From the NCBI RefSeq assembly GCF_025998175.1, contig NZ_AP026695.1, positions 1-64,000 of the forward strand: a DNA stretch of 64,000 nucleotides, written 5' to 3'. The stretch comes from Nitrosopumilus zosterae. Lineage in GTDB: Archaea; Thermoproteota; Nitrososphaeria; Nitrososphaerales; Nitrosopumilaceae. The notes under the pieces were generated by a model that was not told the DNA's origin, searched no databases, and saw only the letters and a program-made list of their open reading frames with translations. A program made the translations under genes and the position numbers. Below, piece after piece: positions 4,716 through 20,627 of this stretch (its first letter is position 1; each line of letters begins with the position of its first letter).

Positions 4716-5468
4716 ATGACTAAAAACCAAGTTGAAACGTTCCTAAAATCAGAATTAAAAAAGAAAAATGCGTTATTATTTGTATTAATCGATTCAGAAG
4801 TATCTAATCTTGATGAATCAGCCAAACTTGCCAAAGATGTTGAAAAGATAGGGGCATCAGCAATCTTGGTTGGTGGCTCCTCAGCCACTGATCAAATTGA
4901 GATGGCTCAAGTTGTCAAAGGAATAAAAAAAGGAATTAAAATTCCAATTATTCTGTTTCCTGGAAATGTTACTGGTGTTGTACCTGACGCAGATGCAATC
5001 TTGTTTAGTTCTTTAATGAATTCAGAAAATCCATACTTTATCACCCAAGCTCAAGCCTTAGGAGCTCCAAGCGTTCTAAAGTTTGGTTTGGAGCCACTTC
5101 CTACTGCCTATTTGGTAATAGGAGAAGGGACGTCTGCCTGGTTTGTAGGTGCAGCCAGAGGAATTCCATTTGAAAAACCAAAAATTGCGGCTGCATATGC
5201 ATTAGCTGCCCAATTCCTTGGCATGAGGTTTGTTTATTTGGAAGCAGGCTCAGGAGCAAAATCAAATGTTACTCCTGAGATGGTTAAAACTGTCAGACAT
5301 GCATTTAATGGATTTTTGATTGTTGGTGGGGGAATTAAAGATGTCAAAACAGCCGAAAGTTTAGTCAAAGCGGGGGCTGATGCTTTGGTTATTGGAACAT
5401 TCCTTGAAAAAGGTGGAAGTATCAAAAAACTCCAAGAAATAGCAAAAGTAATTCAAAGAAGCAAGTAA
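4716..5468 (+). CDS. geranylgeranylglyceryl phosphate synthase
   Basis: Makes the first ether bond of archaeal lipids by joining geranylgeranyl diphosphate to sn-glycerol-1-phosphate. The 250-aa protein is a TIM-barrel with the family landmarks: LIDSE (Asp26), LVGGSS (52-56), LFPGN (80-84), YLEAGSGA near 175 and VGGGIK plus GTFLEKGG for phosphate binding at the C-terminus. Full length. It sits 12 bases before the PolD large-subunit gene, probably co-transcribed, a pairing that links lipid synthesis to replication only by position. Confidence 0.93.
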   Translation: MTKNQVETFLKSELKKKNALLFVLIDSEVSNLDESAKLAKDVEKIGASAILVGGSSATDQIEMAQVVKGIKKGIKIPIILFPGNVTGVVPDADAILFSSLMNSENPYFITQAQALGAPSVLKFGLEPLPTAYLVIGEGTSAWFVGAARGIPFEKPKIAAAYALAAQFLGMRFVYLEAGSGAKSNVTPEMVKTVRHAFNGFLIVGGGIKDVKTAESLVKAGADALVIGTFLEKGGSIKKLQEIAKVIQRSK

Positions 5469-5480
5469 TAGGACAATATC

Positions 5481-8400
5481 ATGTCTGAAAACGACGCAAT
5501 TTCTCGTATTAGTGGAATTAAAATGCCAAATTATTATCTGGATTATTATACTGATCTTTCAACTTATACTTATTCGATTTTTGAACATGCTGCAAAGGCA
5601 AAATCTAGCTTGGTTGATTCTTCAGGAATAATTGAACCAAAAATTGCTTTTGATCTTGCAGATCGTGTTGCAAAAATGCACGAAATTGATATTGCTGATC
5701 CATTACGAGAACTTTTAAAAATTAATGGAAAAGAACTTTCTGCACTAATCCTTTCAAAAGAGATTGCCTTGGGAAAATACACTCTTCCTGATTCATCCAT
5801 GGAGGAAAGACTTGATCTAGCAGTTAGAGTTGGTTTAGCAATTGTAACTGAAGGAGTGACTATTGCACCATTGCAAGGTATTAGTGAAGTAAAAATCAAG
5901 AAAAACAAAGATGGCACAGAATATCTTTCCGTTTCCATTGCAGGACCTATGCGTTCAGCTGGTGGAACTGAGTCTGCTGTAACGATGCTGATTGCAGATC
6001 ATGTAAGGAAGGCCGCTGGATTAGCCAAATATCAAGCAAATTCATTTGATGATGAGACAGGCAGATTTGTAGAAGAATTAAGAATCTATGAAAGAGAAGC
6101 CAGCAGTTTTCAATTTCATATTTTAGATGAAGACATCGAACATGTAATATCTAATTTACCTGTAGAACTAGATGGAGTAGATACTGATCCTTATGAAGTT
6201 GTAAATCACAAATCCATGACTCGTATCAAAACTGATAGAGTTAGAGGTGGTGCATTACGTGTGTTAAATGATGGATTGATTGGCAGATCCAAAAAACTCC
6301 TCAAAAGAATTGAATTGTACAATTTAGATGGTTGGGAATGGCTTAATGATCTTAAAGGTGCAGTCCAGACTGGTGAGAATCAAGAAGATGCTGCTGCTAA
6401 GAGAATGCGTGAGGTAATTACTGGAAGATCAGTATTATCAATGCCCAACAAATTAGGCGGATTTCGATTAAGGTATGGAAGAGCATGTAACACAGGATTT
6501 GCAGCAGTTGGAATTCATCCTATAATTGCTGAAATTCTTGATCACACAGTAGCTGTTGGCACACAAATTAAAATTGACATTCCAGGAAAGGGAGCTACAG
6601 TTGCATTTGTTGATTCGATTGAAACACCAACTGTTCGTTTGAATAATGGAAATGTAATAAAAATTAAAGATGTAAAACATGCATTAGAACTAAAAAATGA
6701 AATTGAAAAAATACTACATCTAGGAGACATCCTAATTTCGTTTGGAGATTTTCTTGAAAATAATGCCCAACTAATACCATCCGCATATGTTGAAGAATTC
6801 TGGATTGAAGAATTAAAACAAAAAATTCAAAATGTAAAGTCTGACGTTCCATATCTGGAACAATTCCTAAATAAAACACCTTCAATCGACGAAGCGATAA
6901 AAATATCTCTTGATTTCAAAATTCCACTACATCCATACTATCTGTATTTTTGGGATAAAATTTCACATGAAGATCTTAGTGTGCTTCTAGAACCTACAAA
7001 AGTCAGTGCGGCATTAATTGAATACCCCTTAAAAACTAAAAAAATACTTGAAAACCTTGGCACTCCTCATACAGTTGAAAACCAAAAAATAATTTTAGAA
7101 AATCAAGAAGCAAAAATATTTTTTAACATATTATTTAGAGAAAAACCAACCATTGATGATTCATCTGTTCCTACAATAATTTCAAAGTCATCAGGAATCC
7201 AAATTAGAAACAAATTTTCTACTTCTGTTGGTGTTAGAATAGGAAGGCCTGAAAAAGCAGCTGCAAGACAGATGAAACCACCAACACACGTTTTATTTCC
7301 TGTCAGTGACAAAGGCGGACCTACAAGAGATATTCTCAAAGCATCTAAAAGTGAACACTTTTTTGCAAATATTTTCAATAGAATTTGTAATCAATGTAAC
7401 GAACCTTCAATTGGAATAAAATGTTCCAAGTGTGGTGTAAAAACAACAATTGCCTATAGGTGCACTAATTGTAGAGATACGCTGAATGAGCCGTTTTGTG
7501 AAAAATGTAAACGAAAAGCTCCTGCACATTCACATAAGGAATTTCCATTAAAGACAAGATTGTTTTTGGCTCAAGAGAAAATGGGACTTCGTGCAAAAGA
7601 GCCATTCAAAGGAGTAAAAGAATTAATTAATCAAGATAAAATTGCCGAACCTTTAGAAAAAGGATTAACACGGCAAAATTTTGGATTAACAACTTTCAAA
7701 GACGGTACTGTTAGGTTTGATGCAACAAATTCCCCCCTGACTCAATTCAAACCATCTTGGATTGGAACTTCAATTGAGAAACTAAAACAACTTGGATATT
7801 ATCATGATGTTGATGGAAATCCTCTTGAAAACTCAGATCAAATTGTAGAACTTCGTATGCAAGATGTGATAATTCCTTATGAAAGTGGGAAATATCTTGT
7901 TTCGACTTGCAAATACATTGATACTCTTTTACAGAAATTTTATGGTGTACCTCCATTTTATAATGTAAATAATTTCAAAGAATTGATTGGTCATCTGATT
8001 ATTGGTTTGGCACCTCATACTTCTGTTGGGATTGTAGGACGTATTATTGGATACACTGAAACTCATGTTTGCTTTGCAACACCAAACTGGCATTCAGCAA
8101 AAAGAAGGGATGCTGATGGTGATGCTGATTCTATAATGCTTCTTATGGATAGTTTACTAAATTTTTCAAGACAATTCCTTTCTGATAGAATTGGTGGATT
8201 AATGGATGCTCCATTACTTGTTCAACCATTAGTTTTGCCACACGAATCTCAACCACAGGCGCACAATCTTGAAGTTACAAAAATATTTCCTCTAGAATTT
8301 TATGAATCCACATTTCGTCAACTTAAAGCATCGGACATCACATCTGTTGATATTATAAAATCAAGGCTAGAAACTGAAAGACAATTTTATGATTATTTCT

Positions 8401-8858
8401 TTACACATTCAACTTCATCTCTAACCACATCAAAATCTCGTAGTGCATACTCCACTCTTGGTTCTATGCTAGATAAATTTGACATGCAAGTTAAAAATGC
8501 AGATTTGATTGATGCTGTAAATACCTCAGAAATTGTTTCAAATGTAATTTCAACACATCTTGTTCCAGATATTATGGGAAATCTTAGAGCATATGCAAGA
8601 CAAAACTTTAGGTGTACTGGATGTGGCAGATCTTATCGGAGAATGCCTCTTATTCAGACATGTATTTGTGGTCATAAACTGATTGCTACAATTACAAGGG
8701 GATCTGTAGAAAAATATCTCAAGCTTGCAAAAAGACTAGTTGAAAAATACGATGTTAGTGAATATCAACGAGGAAGAATTCATGCATTATCCGATGAAAT
8801 TGAACTGGTATTTGGTAAAAACAAAGGAGATCAATCACTACTTACTGATTATGCCTAA
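5481..8858 (+). CDS. polC: DNA polymerase II (PolD) large subunit DP2
   Basis: Catalytic subunit of the family D replicative polymerase. At 1125 aa it is full length and has no intein. The double-psi-barrel active-site acids are visible as DADGDAD at residues 877-883. Zinc modules are seen near 634-675 (CNQC, CSKC, CTNC, CEKC) and near 1044-1063 (CTGC, CICG). The N-terminal GPMRSAGGTESA motif at about 155 is also typical. It follows GGGP synthase by 12 bases and ends 2 bases before the convergent SHMT gene. The small subunit lies 4.3 kb upstream on the same strand, on the far side of the candidate origin. Confidence 0.97.
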   Translation: MSENDAISRISGIKMPNYYLDYYTDLSTYTYSIFEHAAKAKSSLVDSSGIIEPKIAFDLADRVAKMHEIDIADPLRELLKINGKELSALILSKEIALGKYTLPDSSMEERLDLAVRVGLAIVTEGVTIAPLQGISEVKIKKNKDGTEYLSVSIAGPMRSAGGTESAVTMLIADHVRKAAGLAKYQANSFDDETGRFVEELRIYEREASSFQFHILDEDIEHVISNLPVELDGVDTDPYEVVNHKSMTRIKTDRVRGGALRVLNDGLIGRSKKLLKRIELYNLDGWEWLNDLKGAVQTGENQEDAAAKRMREVITGRSVLSMPNKLGGFRLRYGRACNTGFAAVGIHPIIAEILDHTVAVGTQIKIDIPGKGATVAFVDSIETPTVRLNNGNVIKIKDVKHALELKNEIEKILHLGDILISFGDFLENNAQLIPSAYVEEFWIEELKQKIQNVKSDVPYLEQFLNKTPSIDEAIKISLDFKIPLHPYYLYFWDKISHEDLSVLLEPTKVSAALIEYPLKTKKILENLGTPHTVENQKIILENQEAKIFFNILFREKPTIDDSSVPTIISKSSGIQIRNKFSTSVGVRIGRPEKAAARQMKPPTHVLFPVSDKGGPTRDILKASKSEHFFANIFNRICNQCNEPSIGIKCSKCGVKTTIAYRCTNCRDTLNEPFCEKCKRKAPAHSHKEFPLKTRLFLAQEKMGLRAKEPFKGVKELINQDKIAEPLEKGLTRQNFGLTTFKDGTVRFDATNSPLTQFKPSWIGTSIEKLKQLGYYHDVDGNPLENSDQIVELRMQDVIIPYESGKYLVSTCKYIDTLLQKFYGVPPFYNVNNFKELIGHLIIGLAPHTSVGIVGRIIGYTETHVCFATPNWHSAKRRDADGDADSIMLLMDSLLNFSRQFLSDRIGGLMDAPLLVQPLVLPHESQPQAHNLEVTKIFPLEFYESTFRQLKASDITSVDIIKSRLETERQFYDYFFTHSTSSLTTSKSRSAYSTLGSMLDKFDMQVKNADLIDAVNTSEIVSNVISTHLVPDIMGNLRAYARQNFRCTGCGRSYRRMPLIQTCICGHKLIATITRGSVEKYLKLAKRLVEKYDVSEYQRGRIHALSDEIELVFGKNKGDQSLLTDYA

Positions 8859-17208: not shown

Positions 17209-17282
17209 GGGATTGTAGTCTAGCTTGGTATGATACTAGTCTGGGGGACTAGTGGTCGCAGGTTCAAATCCTGCCAATCCCA
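17209..17282 (+). tRNA. tRNA-Pro(GGG)
   Basis: Acceptor stem GGGATTG (17209-17215) pairs with CAATCCC (17275-17281), discriminator A at 17282. Anticodon stem CTAGT/ACTAG closes the loop CTGGGGG, giving anticodon GGG. T arm GCAGG-TTCAAAT-CCTGC. No intron. Its last 16 bases recur exactly at 19850-19865, marking it as an integration site. Confidence 0.95.
17267..17282 (+). repeat. attachment-site copy inside tRNA-Pro (attL)
   Basis: AATCCTGCCAATCCCA: the 3' end of tRNA-Pro up to and including the discriminator base. An exact copy lies at 19850-19865. A 16-base direct repeat ending at a tRNA terminus is the signature of tyrosine-recombinase integration. Confidence 0.75.
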
Positions 17283-17740
17283 CTTTATCAATCATTAAAA
17301 CAGTTCAAATCTTATAGGACTCAAACTAAATTATTCTTTTAAATACTCAAGGATTTCTTTGAGGCATATCGTCATACATCGTAATTTTGTCAATACGAGG
17401 ATCAACAATAGGAGTCTAATCTATAAAAAAGATAGAAAGAAAGGAGCTTTGTATGGAACAGCTATAGTAAGTGGGATAGGATTCATTGCTGATATTGTTT
17501 CAACATATAATAAATAAAAAAATTCATAATGTTTTGTTATTGATACCAAAATAGTTAGCAAAATAGTTTTAATTTTATAGAATTGCCCTAACACTTGTAA
17601 AACGACCATTTGGTGTGTGACTCAATTATCTCAAACATCTGTAAACCTCTTTGAACAAAAAATCTGCTTTTGGGATTCAGGCGTATGCGTATGTATATCT
17701 TGAAAATATGATTTAATTATTCAAAAAATTAATTGTTAAC
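17283..17740. other. 458-base gap before the antiporter
   Basis: No convincing gene. It contains the first copy of an imperfect 31-base repeat (17543-17573) and a plus-strand open frame without ATG (17359-17517). AT-rich, with nothing else recognised. Confidence 0.5.
17543..17573 (+). repeat. imperfect 31-base direct repeat, copy 1
   Basis: Begins ATACCAAAATAGTTAG and ends AGTTTTAAT; 26 of 31 bases match 19822-19852. The two copies lie upstream and downstream of the antiporter gene. Confidence 0.5.
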
Positions 17741-19522
17741 GTGGTTTCTGCAGAGATTACTGAGTTTATCTCGTTGCTTACTGTTCTCTTGGGTGGGGGG
17801 ATGATCGGTGCATGGTTAATGCACAAAATAAAATTCCCTACAATGATTGGTTTTATACTGATTGGAATCATAGCCGGTCCATTTGGTTTGGGGATAGTAA
17901 AAGATACTGAATTAATCAACCTTCTTGCAGAGTTTGGAATTGTGATTCTTTTGTTTGTAGTTGGACTAGAGTTTAGCTTAGAAAAACTGCGTCGTATTGG
18001 AAGTCAAGGAATATTGGTTGGAACTATTCAGCTCTCAATTGTCTTTTTCTTAGGTTATGTAACCGCACTTTCGTTTGGCTGGACGCACATAGAAGGCTTG
18101 TATCTTGGCAGCATTCTGTCAATTACCAGCACTGTTGTGTCGCTTCGACTCTTGCGTGACATGAATCTTGTCAAAACCAAAGAAATGGGAACCATAGTGA
18201 TGATACTGATCATTGAAGATTTGGCAGCAGTTCTTCTCTTGGCAGTTTTGGGAAACGTGTCAAAAGGTTCAGGATTTGAGATGTTTGATATTGGTATGAT
18301 GATTTTGCAAAGCATAGTATTCTTTGTCCTTGCTGTGGTTATTGGCACAAAGATAGTTCCAAAGATAATCGAATATGTAAGCAATATGAAAATGGAAGAG
18401 GCAGCATTCATTACGTCTCTTGCACTTGGATTTGGACTGGCGACCCTTGCTCATTTTATGGGATTGAGTACTGCAATTGGTGCATTTTTGATGGGCCTGA
18501 TAATAGCATCTTCCAAACAGTCAGAATCGATAATAAAAAAAATATTACCAATAAGGGATTTTTTTGGAGTGATATTTTTTGTATCCATAGGCATGTTGTT
18601 TAACATTTACTTGTTTCCCGAGGCAATATGGATTGCACTTCCAATAATTGCAATTGCGGTGTTTGGAAAGTTTCTGGGAAACTTTTTTGCAGCATCCATT
18701 GCAGGAAACAATCTGGTAAGTGCAGCTACAATTGCCACAGTCATGGTTCCCATTGCCGAATTTTCATTTATACTTGCAAAACAAGGGGTAGATACAGGAA
18801 GTCTCAGAGAATCCATATACCCTGTTATACTTTTGGTATCTCTTGGAACCATGTTTGTAATTCCTCTCTTGTTGAGAGTGACTCCCACATTAGCTGACTC
18901 ACGTTCAGCAATACCGATGGGATTTCTAAACTCAGTCTATATCACAGGACAGTTTTTCAGAAAGACGTTCTCAAACAGTTCTGATGGAGAGAGTCACATG
19001 TTAAACCAAATCTTCAAAAAATATGGGTCACGGTTTGTCGTAAATTTGGTGATAATCATAACCATACTTTCTGCAATGGATTATTTTGCACCAGAGATTG
19101 TAATGCTTCTTGAAGATCCAAACGTGCCATTCTTTATGGATTCATCAGTGTTTGTTTCAATCATCACTATTCTGCTTCTGGCTTATCCTGTCTTCTCTCT
19201 TGTGGGAAGAATGGAAAAAGTAGTTACAGCAATTTCAAATTCGATTACCATGAACATCGGCTCGCAGTCTACTGCAAAACCAGTACATAGGATAATCCGT
19301 AATATTTTATCTATTGGACTTGTACTGCTTCTGGTTGCAATATTCATAACATTTACCACTAAAATCGAAGACATCCCAAACATGCCAATCATAATATCTA
19401 CAATTGGACTGCTTATCTCAGCACCACTGATCTTGGACACGATCCTGACAGTTCAGAAAATCACTCACTCAAACATGGTTGGATTGTTAAGTGATGACGT
19501 AAATGAAGACAAAGATGAATGA
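17741..19522 (+). CDS. Kef-type cation/proton antiporter (CPA2)
   Basis: 593-aa membrane protein, GTG start. The N-terminal about 390 residues hold the CPA2 exchanger core of about twelve helices, with the IIEDLAAVLLLA segment (the paired acidic residue region) and GLSTAIGAFLMGLIIA. The C-terminal part carries extra membrane helices near 435-455, 475-490, 520-545 and 555-570, instead of the usual soluble TrkA-N domain. It should exchange Na+ or K+ for protons. It is the only substantial gene between the duplicated tRNA-Pro ends, and it is richer in GC and in CTG/ATA codons than its neighbours, suggesting acquisition by transfer. Confidence 0.85.
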   Translation: MVSAEITEFISLLTVLLGGGMIGAWLMHKIKFPTMIGFILIGIIAGPFGLGIVKDTELINLLAEFGIVILLFVVGLEFSLEKLRRIGSQGILVGTIQLSIVFFLGYVTALSFGWTHIEGLYLGSILSITSTVVSLRLLRDMNLVKTKEMGTIVMILIIEDLAAVLLLAVLGNVSKGSGFEMFDIGMMILQSIVFFVLAVVIGTKIVPKIIEYVSNMKMEEAAFITSLALGFGLATLAHFMGLSTAIGAFLMGLIIASSKQSESIIKKILPIRDFFGVIFFVSIGMLFNIYLFPEAIWIALPIIAIAVFGKFLGNFFAASIAGNNLVSAATIATVMVPIAEFSFILAKQGVDTGSLRESIYPVILLVSLGTMFVIPLLLRVTPTLADSRSAIPMGFLNSVYITGQFFRKTFSNSSDGESHMLNQIFKKYGSRFVVNLVIIITILSAMDYFAPEIVMLLEDPNVPFFMDSSVFVSIITILLLAYPVFSLVGRMEKVVTAISNSITMNIGSQSTAKPVHRIIRNILSIGLVLLLVAIFITFTTKIEDIPNMPIIISTIGLLISAPLILDTILTVQKITHSNMVGLLSDDVNEDKDE

Positions 19523-19636
19523 TTCTGTTATTGTGTTGGTTTTAAGACTGTCTTCTTAGTTCTACATCTAACCGTAAAGGTATCTTTAACATGATTCCTG
19601 CATTGTGGTTAAATACAAATTTTGTATAATGGAACC

Positions 19637-19735
19637 ATGTTCCAATCCATTACTAAAAAGATATTCAAAATAATTCAAAATCAGTGGGATCAGTTAGAGG
19701 ATCCTGACCAAGAATGGATAGAACTAGAAGAATAA
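19637..19735 (+). CDS. possible 32-aa acidic miniprotein
   Basis: ATG to TAA frame coding 32 residues: a basic amphipathic start (SITKKIFKIIQN) followed by an acidic, tryptophan-containing end (WDQLEDPDQEWIELEE). A TTAAATA stretch lies about 26 bases upstream. The biased, structured composition suggests it may be real. No family known to me. It lies inside the putative element, after the antiporter. Confidence 0.35.
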   Translation: MFQSITKKIFKIIQNQWDQLEDPDQEWIELEE

Positions 19736-19821
19736 TTGACCTATACGATACTATCTTGATTTTGTTCTAAAGGTTTGATCAAGTATTGCTAACCATATTC
19801 GACATGCAAACCTGCCTAATG

Positions 19822-19852
19822 GTACCAAAATAGTTGGTAAACAAGTTTTAAT
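19822..19852 (+). repeat. imperfect 31-base direct repeat, copy 2
   Basis: GTACCAAAATAGTTGG to AGTTTTAAT; 26 of 31 bases match 17543-17573. Its last three bases run into the second copy of the tRNA-Pro end. Confidence 0.5.
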
Positions 19853-19865
19853 CCTGCCAATCCCA
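19850..19865 (+). repeat. duplicated tRNA-Pro 3' end (attR)
   Basis: Exact 16-base copy of 17267-17282. The stop codon of the convergent kinase gene begins at the very next base, 19866, so the kinase gene was left intact. Confidence 0.75.
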
Positions 19866-20627
19866 TCATAATTTTAGAGTTTTTAGTAATTTTTCAAAAC
19901 TTTCTCTTGTTTTTTCTTGTTTGTATTGTTTTAACGCACTAATTATTTGATCTTTAGATGAATTCCTGTAAATTTTTTGAGCTTTTTTAGCTATTCCTGA
20001 ACCAATGAAAAATGCTTGAGTAATTGATGTAACATTTGATGGTCTTCTCTTAGTGCTAGAACTTTCAAAATCAATAAGGGTCGATTTTGTCTTACTTACT
20101 ATAACATGTTTGGATATATTACTTAATTCACCATGATCAAAACCTAATTGATCCAACCTATAACAATCTTCCAAAATTTTTCTGATTGTAGACTTTAATT
20201 TTTTTGCACTACCAACACCTTTTAACAAATAAACCCAATCACTGATTTTAACTCCTTCAAGATATTCCATCACAAGAAAATTTTTACTCGATTCTAACAT
20301 TTTTGGCCCAACATTTACAGAATTTACTAATTTCAATAAATCAGCTTCATTTTTCATTTCTTTTCTTTGAGAATCAGTTCTTCTAATTTTTAATGCAACC
20401 AATTTATTATTTTTTTTTGCTAGAACTACAACACCTACATATCCCTTACCCAAAATAGACAAGCTACCAATTGTTGTAGGACCCACAAATGAAATTGATT
20501 TTATTTTTAATTTTTCTAATTCATTAATTCTTGATTTTATTTGACGACTAGTAGCTTTTGGATATCCAAGAATTTTTGAGTATGGCTCATCAGAAAATTT
20601 CTTAATTGAAATAAATGAGTGTTCCAT
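19866..20627 (-). CDS. predicted Ser/Thr protein kinase (COG2112 type)
   Basis: 253 aa. Reduced kinase fold: glycine loop LGKGYVGVVV near 59-68, ATP lysine in VALKIRR, LVMEYLEG hinge, catalytic-loop equivalent FDHGELS and LIDFES in place of DFG. An N-terminal helical extension (KATSRQIKSRINELEKLKI) resembles a wHTH, as in RIO-type kinases. The gene overlaps the cca gene by 26 bases and is probably translated with it. Substrate unknown; RNA-processing genes next door suggest an RNA-linked role. Confidence 0.75.
   Translation of the reverse strand: MEHSFISIKKFSDEPYSKILGYPKATSRQIKSRINELEKLKIKSISFVGPTTIGSLSILGKGYVGVVVLAKKNNKLVALKIRRTDSQRKEMKNEADLLKLVNSVNVGPKMLESSKNFLVMEYLEGVKISDWVYLLKGVGSAKKLKSTIRKILEDCYRLDQLGFDHGELSNISKHVIVSKTKSTLIDFESSSTKRRPSNVTSITQAFFIGSGIAKKAQKIYRNSSKDQIISALKQYKQEKTRESFEKLLKTLKL

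Follow-up and report, generated by a model that had tools for sequence, protein, structure and literature searches.

An integrase-less insertion carrying a CPA2-type antiporter gene at tRNA-Pro(GGG) of Nitrosopumilus zosterae

An antiporter gene of Nitrosopumilus zosterae lies within a segment that entered the 3' end of the tRNA-Pro(GGG) gene by site-specific integration with duplication of the att core, later than the split of this archaeon from its closest relative. The segment was found in the 64,000-nucleotide stretch of DNA that was analysed, referred to here as the window. It is probably a non-autonomous integrative cassette, deleted for its integrase and moved in trans by a related integrase, that brought a CPA2-type antiporter to this site. 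The features of the locus are as follows.

17209..17282, + strand: tRNA-Pro(GGG), the integration target; its 3' end forms the attachment site on the left (ARAGORN; Rfam RF00005, 63.6 bits)
17267..17282, + strand: attL core AATCCTGCCAATCCCA, exact repeat, identical to the empty-site sequence in the closest relative (G172)
17283..17322, + strand: left end of the element, containing the conserved box ATCATTAAAACAGTTCAAATCTTATAGGACTC; same post-core junction in G114:C113
17545..17589, + strand: internal right-end copy, two 12-mer arms and then a degenerate core (83% repeat of the right end; pattern with 0 mismatches)
17741..19522, + strand: cargo, CPA2-type monovalent cation/proton antiporter, 593 aa, GTG start (PF00999, E=1e-57)
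19637..19735, + strand: 32-aa orphan ORF (MFQSITKK...), not known to be a gene; no relative in any locus compared
19817..19849, + strand: right end, 12-mers ACCAAAATAGTT (19824-19835) and GGTAAACAAGTT (19836-19847) against the core; putative integrase arm sites
19850..19865, + strand: attR core AATCCTGCCAATCCCA, exact repeat
19866..20627, - strand: bud32-like kinase, intact, flanking the insertion (Pfam Pkinase/RIO1 matches)

The core AATCCTGCCAATCCCA constitutes the last 16 bases of tRNA-Pro(GGG), the 3' end of which is placed at 17282 by Infernal and at 17283 by ARAGORN. The first-pass annotation had reported that this tRNA end recurs 2.6 kb on, and exact copies are indeed present at 17267-17282 and 19850-19865; no third mismatch-free copy exists in the 1.775-Mb single-contig genome, in which other near matches carry a mismatch. 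The inserted unit between the cores amounts to 2,583 bp. The stop codon of bud32 (TCA on the + strand) starts at 19866, the first base past the repeat, in agreement with the earlier statement that the kinase gene had been left intact. That no integrase is visible also held: the element encodes no complete integrase, there is no integrase ORF within 17283-19849, and the content is limited to the antiporter and orphan short ORFs. The conserved ends of the element had been overlooked, namely a box at 17290-17322, tandem arm repeats at 19824-19847 and an internal copy of the latter at 17545-17568.

Comparison of the tRNA-Pro-to-kinase interval among relatives had been proposed in the first-pass annotation. 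This was done for 60 other genomes of the genus, one per species, and the closest relative, like most congeners, proved to have an exact empty site. The site is unoccupied in 55 of the 60, among them G172, which is 98% identical to the window in bud32 and in the CCA enzyme and 97% identical in the upstream oxidoreductase. The tRNA end stands directly against the bud32 stop, with zero bases between, in 47 genomes; 18-99 bp separate the two in 6/60, and the tRNA-Pro at the site is degenerate in 2/60. The empty site in G172 reads AATCCTGCCAATCCCA followed by TTATAATTTTAG, while the window after the insert reads AATCCTGCCAATCCCA followed by TCATAATTTTAG; therefore, integration occurred with core duplication after the split from G172. 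With border repeats of the tRNA 3' end and a precise empty site in a close relative, the insertion belongs with the tRNA-gene site-specific integrated elements.

At the five other tRNA-Pro sites (5/60), inserts of 1.2-3.2 kb carry different cargo:

G133, 2,915 bp: multicopper oxidase, winged-helix regulator, small membrane protein
G103, 3,157 bp: N-terminal integrase fragment, orotate phosphoribosyltransferase, other ORFs
G178, 1,312 bp: 76-aa integrase fragment and other coding sequence
G142, 1,230 bp: 61-aa ORF, internal att copy, membrane protein
G138, 2,302 bp: methyltransferase-like and kelch-like proteins (judged from their sequences)

None of these five inserts contains an intact integrase or the antiporter. 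The tRNA-Pro site has been reused by different cargos. Some other loci depart from the usual arrangement. The bud32-side tRNA-Pro(GGG) is degenerate or truncated, without an insertion, at L090 (G110; 8735-8815) and L190 (G113), and in other genera (L250 of G071, L252 of G039 and L253 of G022) about 1-3 kb separates tRNA-Pro from bud32. At L174 (G025:C1; 11786-11865), a right end and core precede ~37 bp matching the 3' end of the G025 bud32, a gene that is itself on a different contig from this right end; an imprecise excision that took host DNA along is a possible origin of this arrangement.

The right end shows what the element has in common with others. Tandem 12-mers abutting the att core, ACCAAAATAGTY and RSCAAAATAGTT, are a family feature, and in our alignment (A1) the consensus is ACCAAAATARTY and then RSCAAAATAGTT, abutting TTAATCC of the core; the right ends of G138, G142 and G178 are more degenerate than this consensus. 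Searches with the pattern, allowing up to 2 mismatches, found 10 matches in 7 of 250 genomes of the family, and the reversed-pattern control found 0. Two of the matches are in the window, one at the true end (19824-19852) and one at the internal copy (17545-17573); the latter suggests that two cassettes accreted in tandem at the site. The same arms occur in an element of ~11.8 kb at tRNA-Val in G018, which has an intact tyrosine integrase and ends in ACCAAAATAGTC followed by ACCAAAAACCTT beside its own core, an architecture like that of the window right end. The window element and an integrase-bearing relative thus have their right end in common, and the 12-mers are presumably integrase arm sites. 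A second integrase clade, which includes the window genome's own enzyme near 579 kb, has candidate ends of another type, TGCGTCCATTTT.... We considered whether the right end might be a degenerate copy of tRNA-Pro, as CTAATTGGTA resembles the D-arm; the tRNA-Val element has the 12-mers without CTAATTGGTA. The right ends fold no better than shuffled sequences (z between -0.99 and 0.54). At L170 (G165; about 5202-6552), a 1.27-kb element at tRNA-Val(TAC) has a truncated integrase of the G018-type clade and degenerate versions of the same arms, and is a miniature member at a second tRNA.

The left end is less uniform. The window sequence right after the core is CTTTATCAATCATTAAAACAGTTCAAATCTTATAGGACTC, and this junction recurs in G114:C113 with a different cargo; a longer version is found in G142, G138 and G169, and the box is absent from the G133 element. 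G114 and G169 show a right end, then a core, then a left end, the arrangement expected of tandem cassettes. The same cargo start, ATCTTGGAAAATAAAACATCACAGCAACACC, adjoins this junction at L261/L277 (G169:C47) and L131 (G114:C113), and both contigs apparently hold tandem cassette arrays. Solitary copies of the box are found between genes as well, with 14 matches in 10 genomes as against 1 in the control, and for this reason the box says less about common descent than the right end does. In part of the genus, 1-3 copies per genome are found of a dispersed intergenic repeat, CACTAAACCAGTTCAAATCTTATAGGATTC, which corresponds to the cassette left-end box and has a near-palindromic core (L254, L255, L259, L260, L262, L264-L267, L275 and L277); a small hairpin precedes some of these copies, e.g. 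GACCCTTTGACGGTC. The box core is not the 3' end of any tRNA found near the box matches in nine genomes. That the box is purely an integrase remnant was considered, and is weakened by the intergenic copies that occur without integrase sequence.

What integrase sequence there is at tRNA-Pro belongs to one class. The members there carry at most N-terminal fragments of a G018-class integrase: the G103 fragment shares 68% identity with the N-terminus of the intact integrase of G137 and 64% with that of G018, and the G103 type is also represented by the G178 fragment and by a pseudogene in G114:C57. This pseudogene lies with a CDF-type transporter on the minus strand, outside any tRNA gene (L132; 8700-12270), at what we read as a secondary site; the core there seems to be divided between the two ends and may mark the crossover point. 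No intact tRNA-Pro-specific integrase was found in the 250 family genomes or in IMG/VR, and viral contigs gave no match to the right-end pattern and none to the integrase N-terminus. The first-pass annotation had also suggested a search for a matching integrase elsewhere in the genome. Other tyrosine recombinases are present, but the one at tRNA-Val belongs to another clade and its candidate right end is not the same, and the window genome has no integrase of the matching clade. This second integrated element, at tRNA-Val(CAC) near 579,000-600,000 of G000:C1 (L114, L203), encodes an intact tyrosine integrase, and two candidate copies of att lie 18 and 21 kb further along. An SSV-type (suicidal) element, in which attP splits the integrase gene, is not indicated, there being no PF16795 match in the genome and no integrase part at the right end.

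The cargo protein matches PF00999 with 196 bits (cut-off 26), which places it in CPA2, and TIGR00932 with 187 bits, below the 238-bit cut-off. Among solved structures, those nearest to it are of NapA-type Na+/H+ antiporters (4BWZ, E=1e-40). It is not a KefB/KefC potassium efflux protein by the models for these, which extend over a C-terminal ligand-binding domain and which it matches in the membrane part only (114 bits versus cut-offs of 752-804), and it has no TrkA-N domain. A role in ion or pH homeostasis is plausible from its family. The first-pass annotation had drawn attention to the high GC content of this gene, and the value of 38.4% does exceed those of neighbouring genes (bud32 27.4%, CCA enzyme 27.9%, upstream oxidoreductase 31.9%). 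As evidence of foreign origin this is weak, and we rejected composition as proof: glnA, also in the window, has 35.9%, and the orthologues (33-43%) exceed the GC of their flanks in many hosts, mostly by a few points, so GC content by itself does not demonstrate a foreign source.

Full-length orthologues of the antiporter are patchy (22 of 95 genomes of the genus), and none of those examined is at tRNA-Pro. In the antiporter tree, the window protein groups with a fragment from G146 (81% identity) and then with the G172 copy (77-78%), with SH-aLRT values of 91 and 99, whereas host relatedness has the reverse order (Bud32 98% for G172 versus 80% for G146). The G172 copy lies at another locus, and its 20-kb surroundings contain no tRNA. 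A phylogeny was among the checks suggested at the outset, and it is discordant with host relatedness; horizontal acquisition is the simplest reading. A search of genome contigs with the antiporter gave three matches, all thaumarchaeal.

The preferred account may be outlined as follows. The starting molecule would have been a circular DNA on which the antiporter gene was accompanied by flanking arm sites and by an attP core identical to the 16 final bases of tRNA-Pro. A tyrosine integrase would have recombined this circle into the 3' end of tRNA-Pro(GGG); the empty sites show that the tRNA was regenerated and the core duplicated. A relative, either resident in the same cell or newly arriving, probably provided the enzyme in trans. 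That the enzyme came from a relative is argued by the lack of an integrase in the element and by a right end that is that of an integrase-bearing family, and its action in trans by the common ends of unrelated cargos and the absence of an intact integrase from every tRNA-Pro member. Two cassettes would have accreted at the site, and the cargo would add a monovalent cation/proton antiporter to the host.

The first-pass annotation had left the choice between a mobilised cassette and a decayed element. Under decay, a larger element equipped with an integrase of its own would have entered tRNA-Pro; deletions at the site would then have removed that gene and most others, so that the antiporter and the att repeats survived. 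Archaeal elements that lack an integrase are by default explained in the literature as having lost it after they integrated (PMC8371274), decay does happen at this site, as the truncated integrase genes of G103 and G178 attest, and the internal right-end copy in the window has a degenerate core. Yet the two 16-bp cores in the window have not diverged from each other, and the insertion postdates the G172 split, so there was little time for decay. Moreover, all six inserts at tRNA-Pro (6/6) are small and without an intact integrase, the left-end junction is identical in G114:C113 at another place, and the same compact ends flank unrelated cargos. Because these ends are shared in several species, the cassette is favoured and decay in place is rather unlikely.

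Two further readings were weighed. The antiporter might have stood beside tRNA-Pro from an early date, inherited vertically and lost from other species, with a coincidental 16-bp repeat. Its occurrence in 22 genomes of the genus would suit such descent, but the reading requires base-exact loss of the segment in many species and chance repetition of a 16-mer that has no further perfect copy in the genome, no examined orthologue occupies the site, and the exact empty site in G172 contradicts it; it is extremely improbable. The units might also form a dedicated archaeal cassette system, recombinase-less and with a conserved right end of 12-mer arms and core, in which the left-end box would be an arm-plus-core-like site (CACYAAAMCARTT and CAAATCTTATAGGATTC) dispersed in intergenic DNA of the genus. 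Cargo would be gained or exchanged by site-specific recombination at the boxes, and helper integrases would deliver the units to tRNA-Pro and to secondary sites. We hold this reading to be doubtful.

A CIME, or cis-mobilizable element, of bacteria is an att-flanked unit without a recombinase gene. Tycheposons of Prochlorococcus are tRNA-associated and cargo-carrying elements of streamlined marine microbes, some of them presumably helper-dependent, and are defined by a tyrosine recombinase plus replication and packaging modules in marine bacteria; by that definition the window element is set apart, since its host is archaeal and no such modules are present in it. Bacterial hitcher elements depend on helpers and accrete at one site (PMC11389934). 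The window element resembles CIMEs and hitchers as an att-flanked unit without recombination or transfer genes, but it is archaeal, with ~1-3 kb per unit, and its mobilisation by a helper is putative. Thaumarchaeal cryptic integrated elements (CIEs), described by Krupovic et al. in 2019, target tRNA 3' ends, have att sites with a median of 17 bp, are as small as 2.6 kb, carry cargo that includes transporters and multicopper oxidases, and are known to integrate in tandem (PMC6563490). Our element agrees in its tRNA target, 16-bp att, size and type of cargo; CIEs are recognised largely by their integrase (PMC6563490), which this element does not encode. A right end common to different cargos and movement in trans are absent from the CIE account as far as its available text extends (PMC6563490). 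Thus, the element fits the CIEs in these respects, yet lacks their class-defining integrase and acts like a CIME or hitcher element. Integron gene cassettes and CALINs have been reported in archaea (PMC9668308). They resemble the window element in that units without a recombinase hold variable cargo, at times in head-to-tail order, and are moved by an integrase that is encoded elsewhere; in contrast, the window right ends have no attC-like folding, the target is a tRNA, and the integrase relatives are of the mobile-element type rather than IntI. No earlier description of this insertion was found in searches of open-licence papers.

Movement in trans, for which the common ends argue, can now be tested against the usual explanation of loss after integration, and the right-end signature makes such cassettes searchable. 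Surveys keyed to integrases would miss them, and hence counts of mobile elements in Thaumarchaeota may be too low. Although the genomes of ammonia-oxidizing archaea are small, closely related species are not alike in their transporters and copper enzymes. If the reading given here is true, these organisms would have a compact means of gaining such genes in integrase-less cassettes of 1-3 kb that have their ends in common and bring different cargo to one tRNA.
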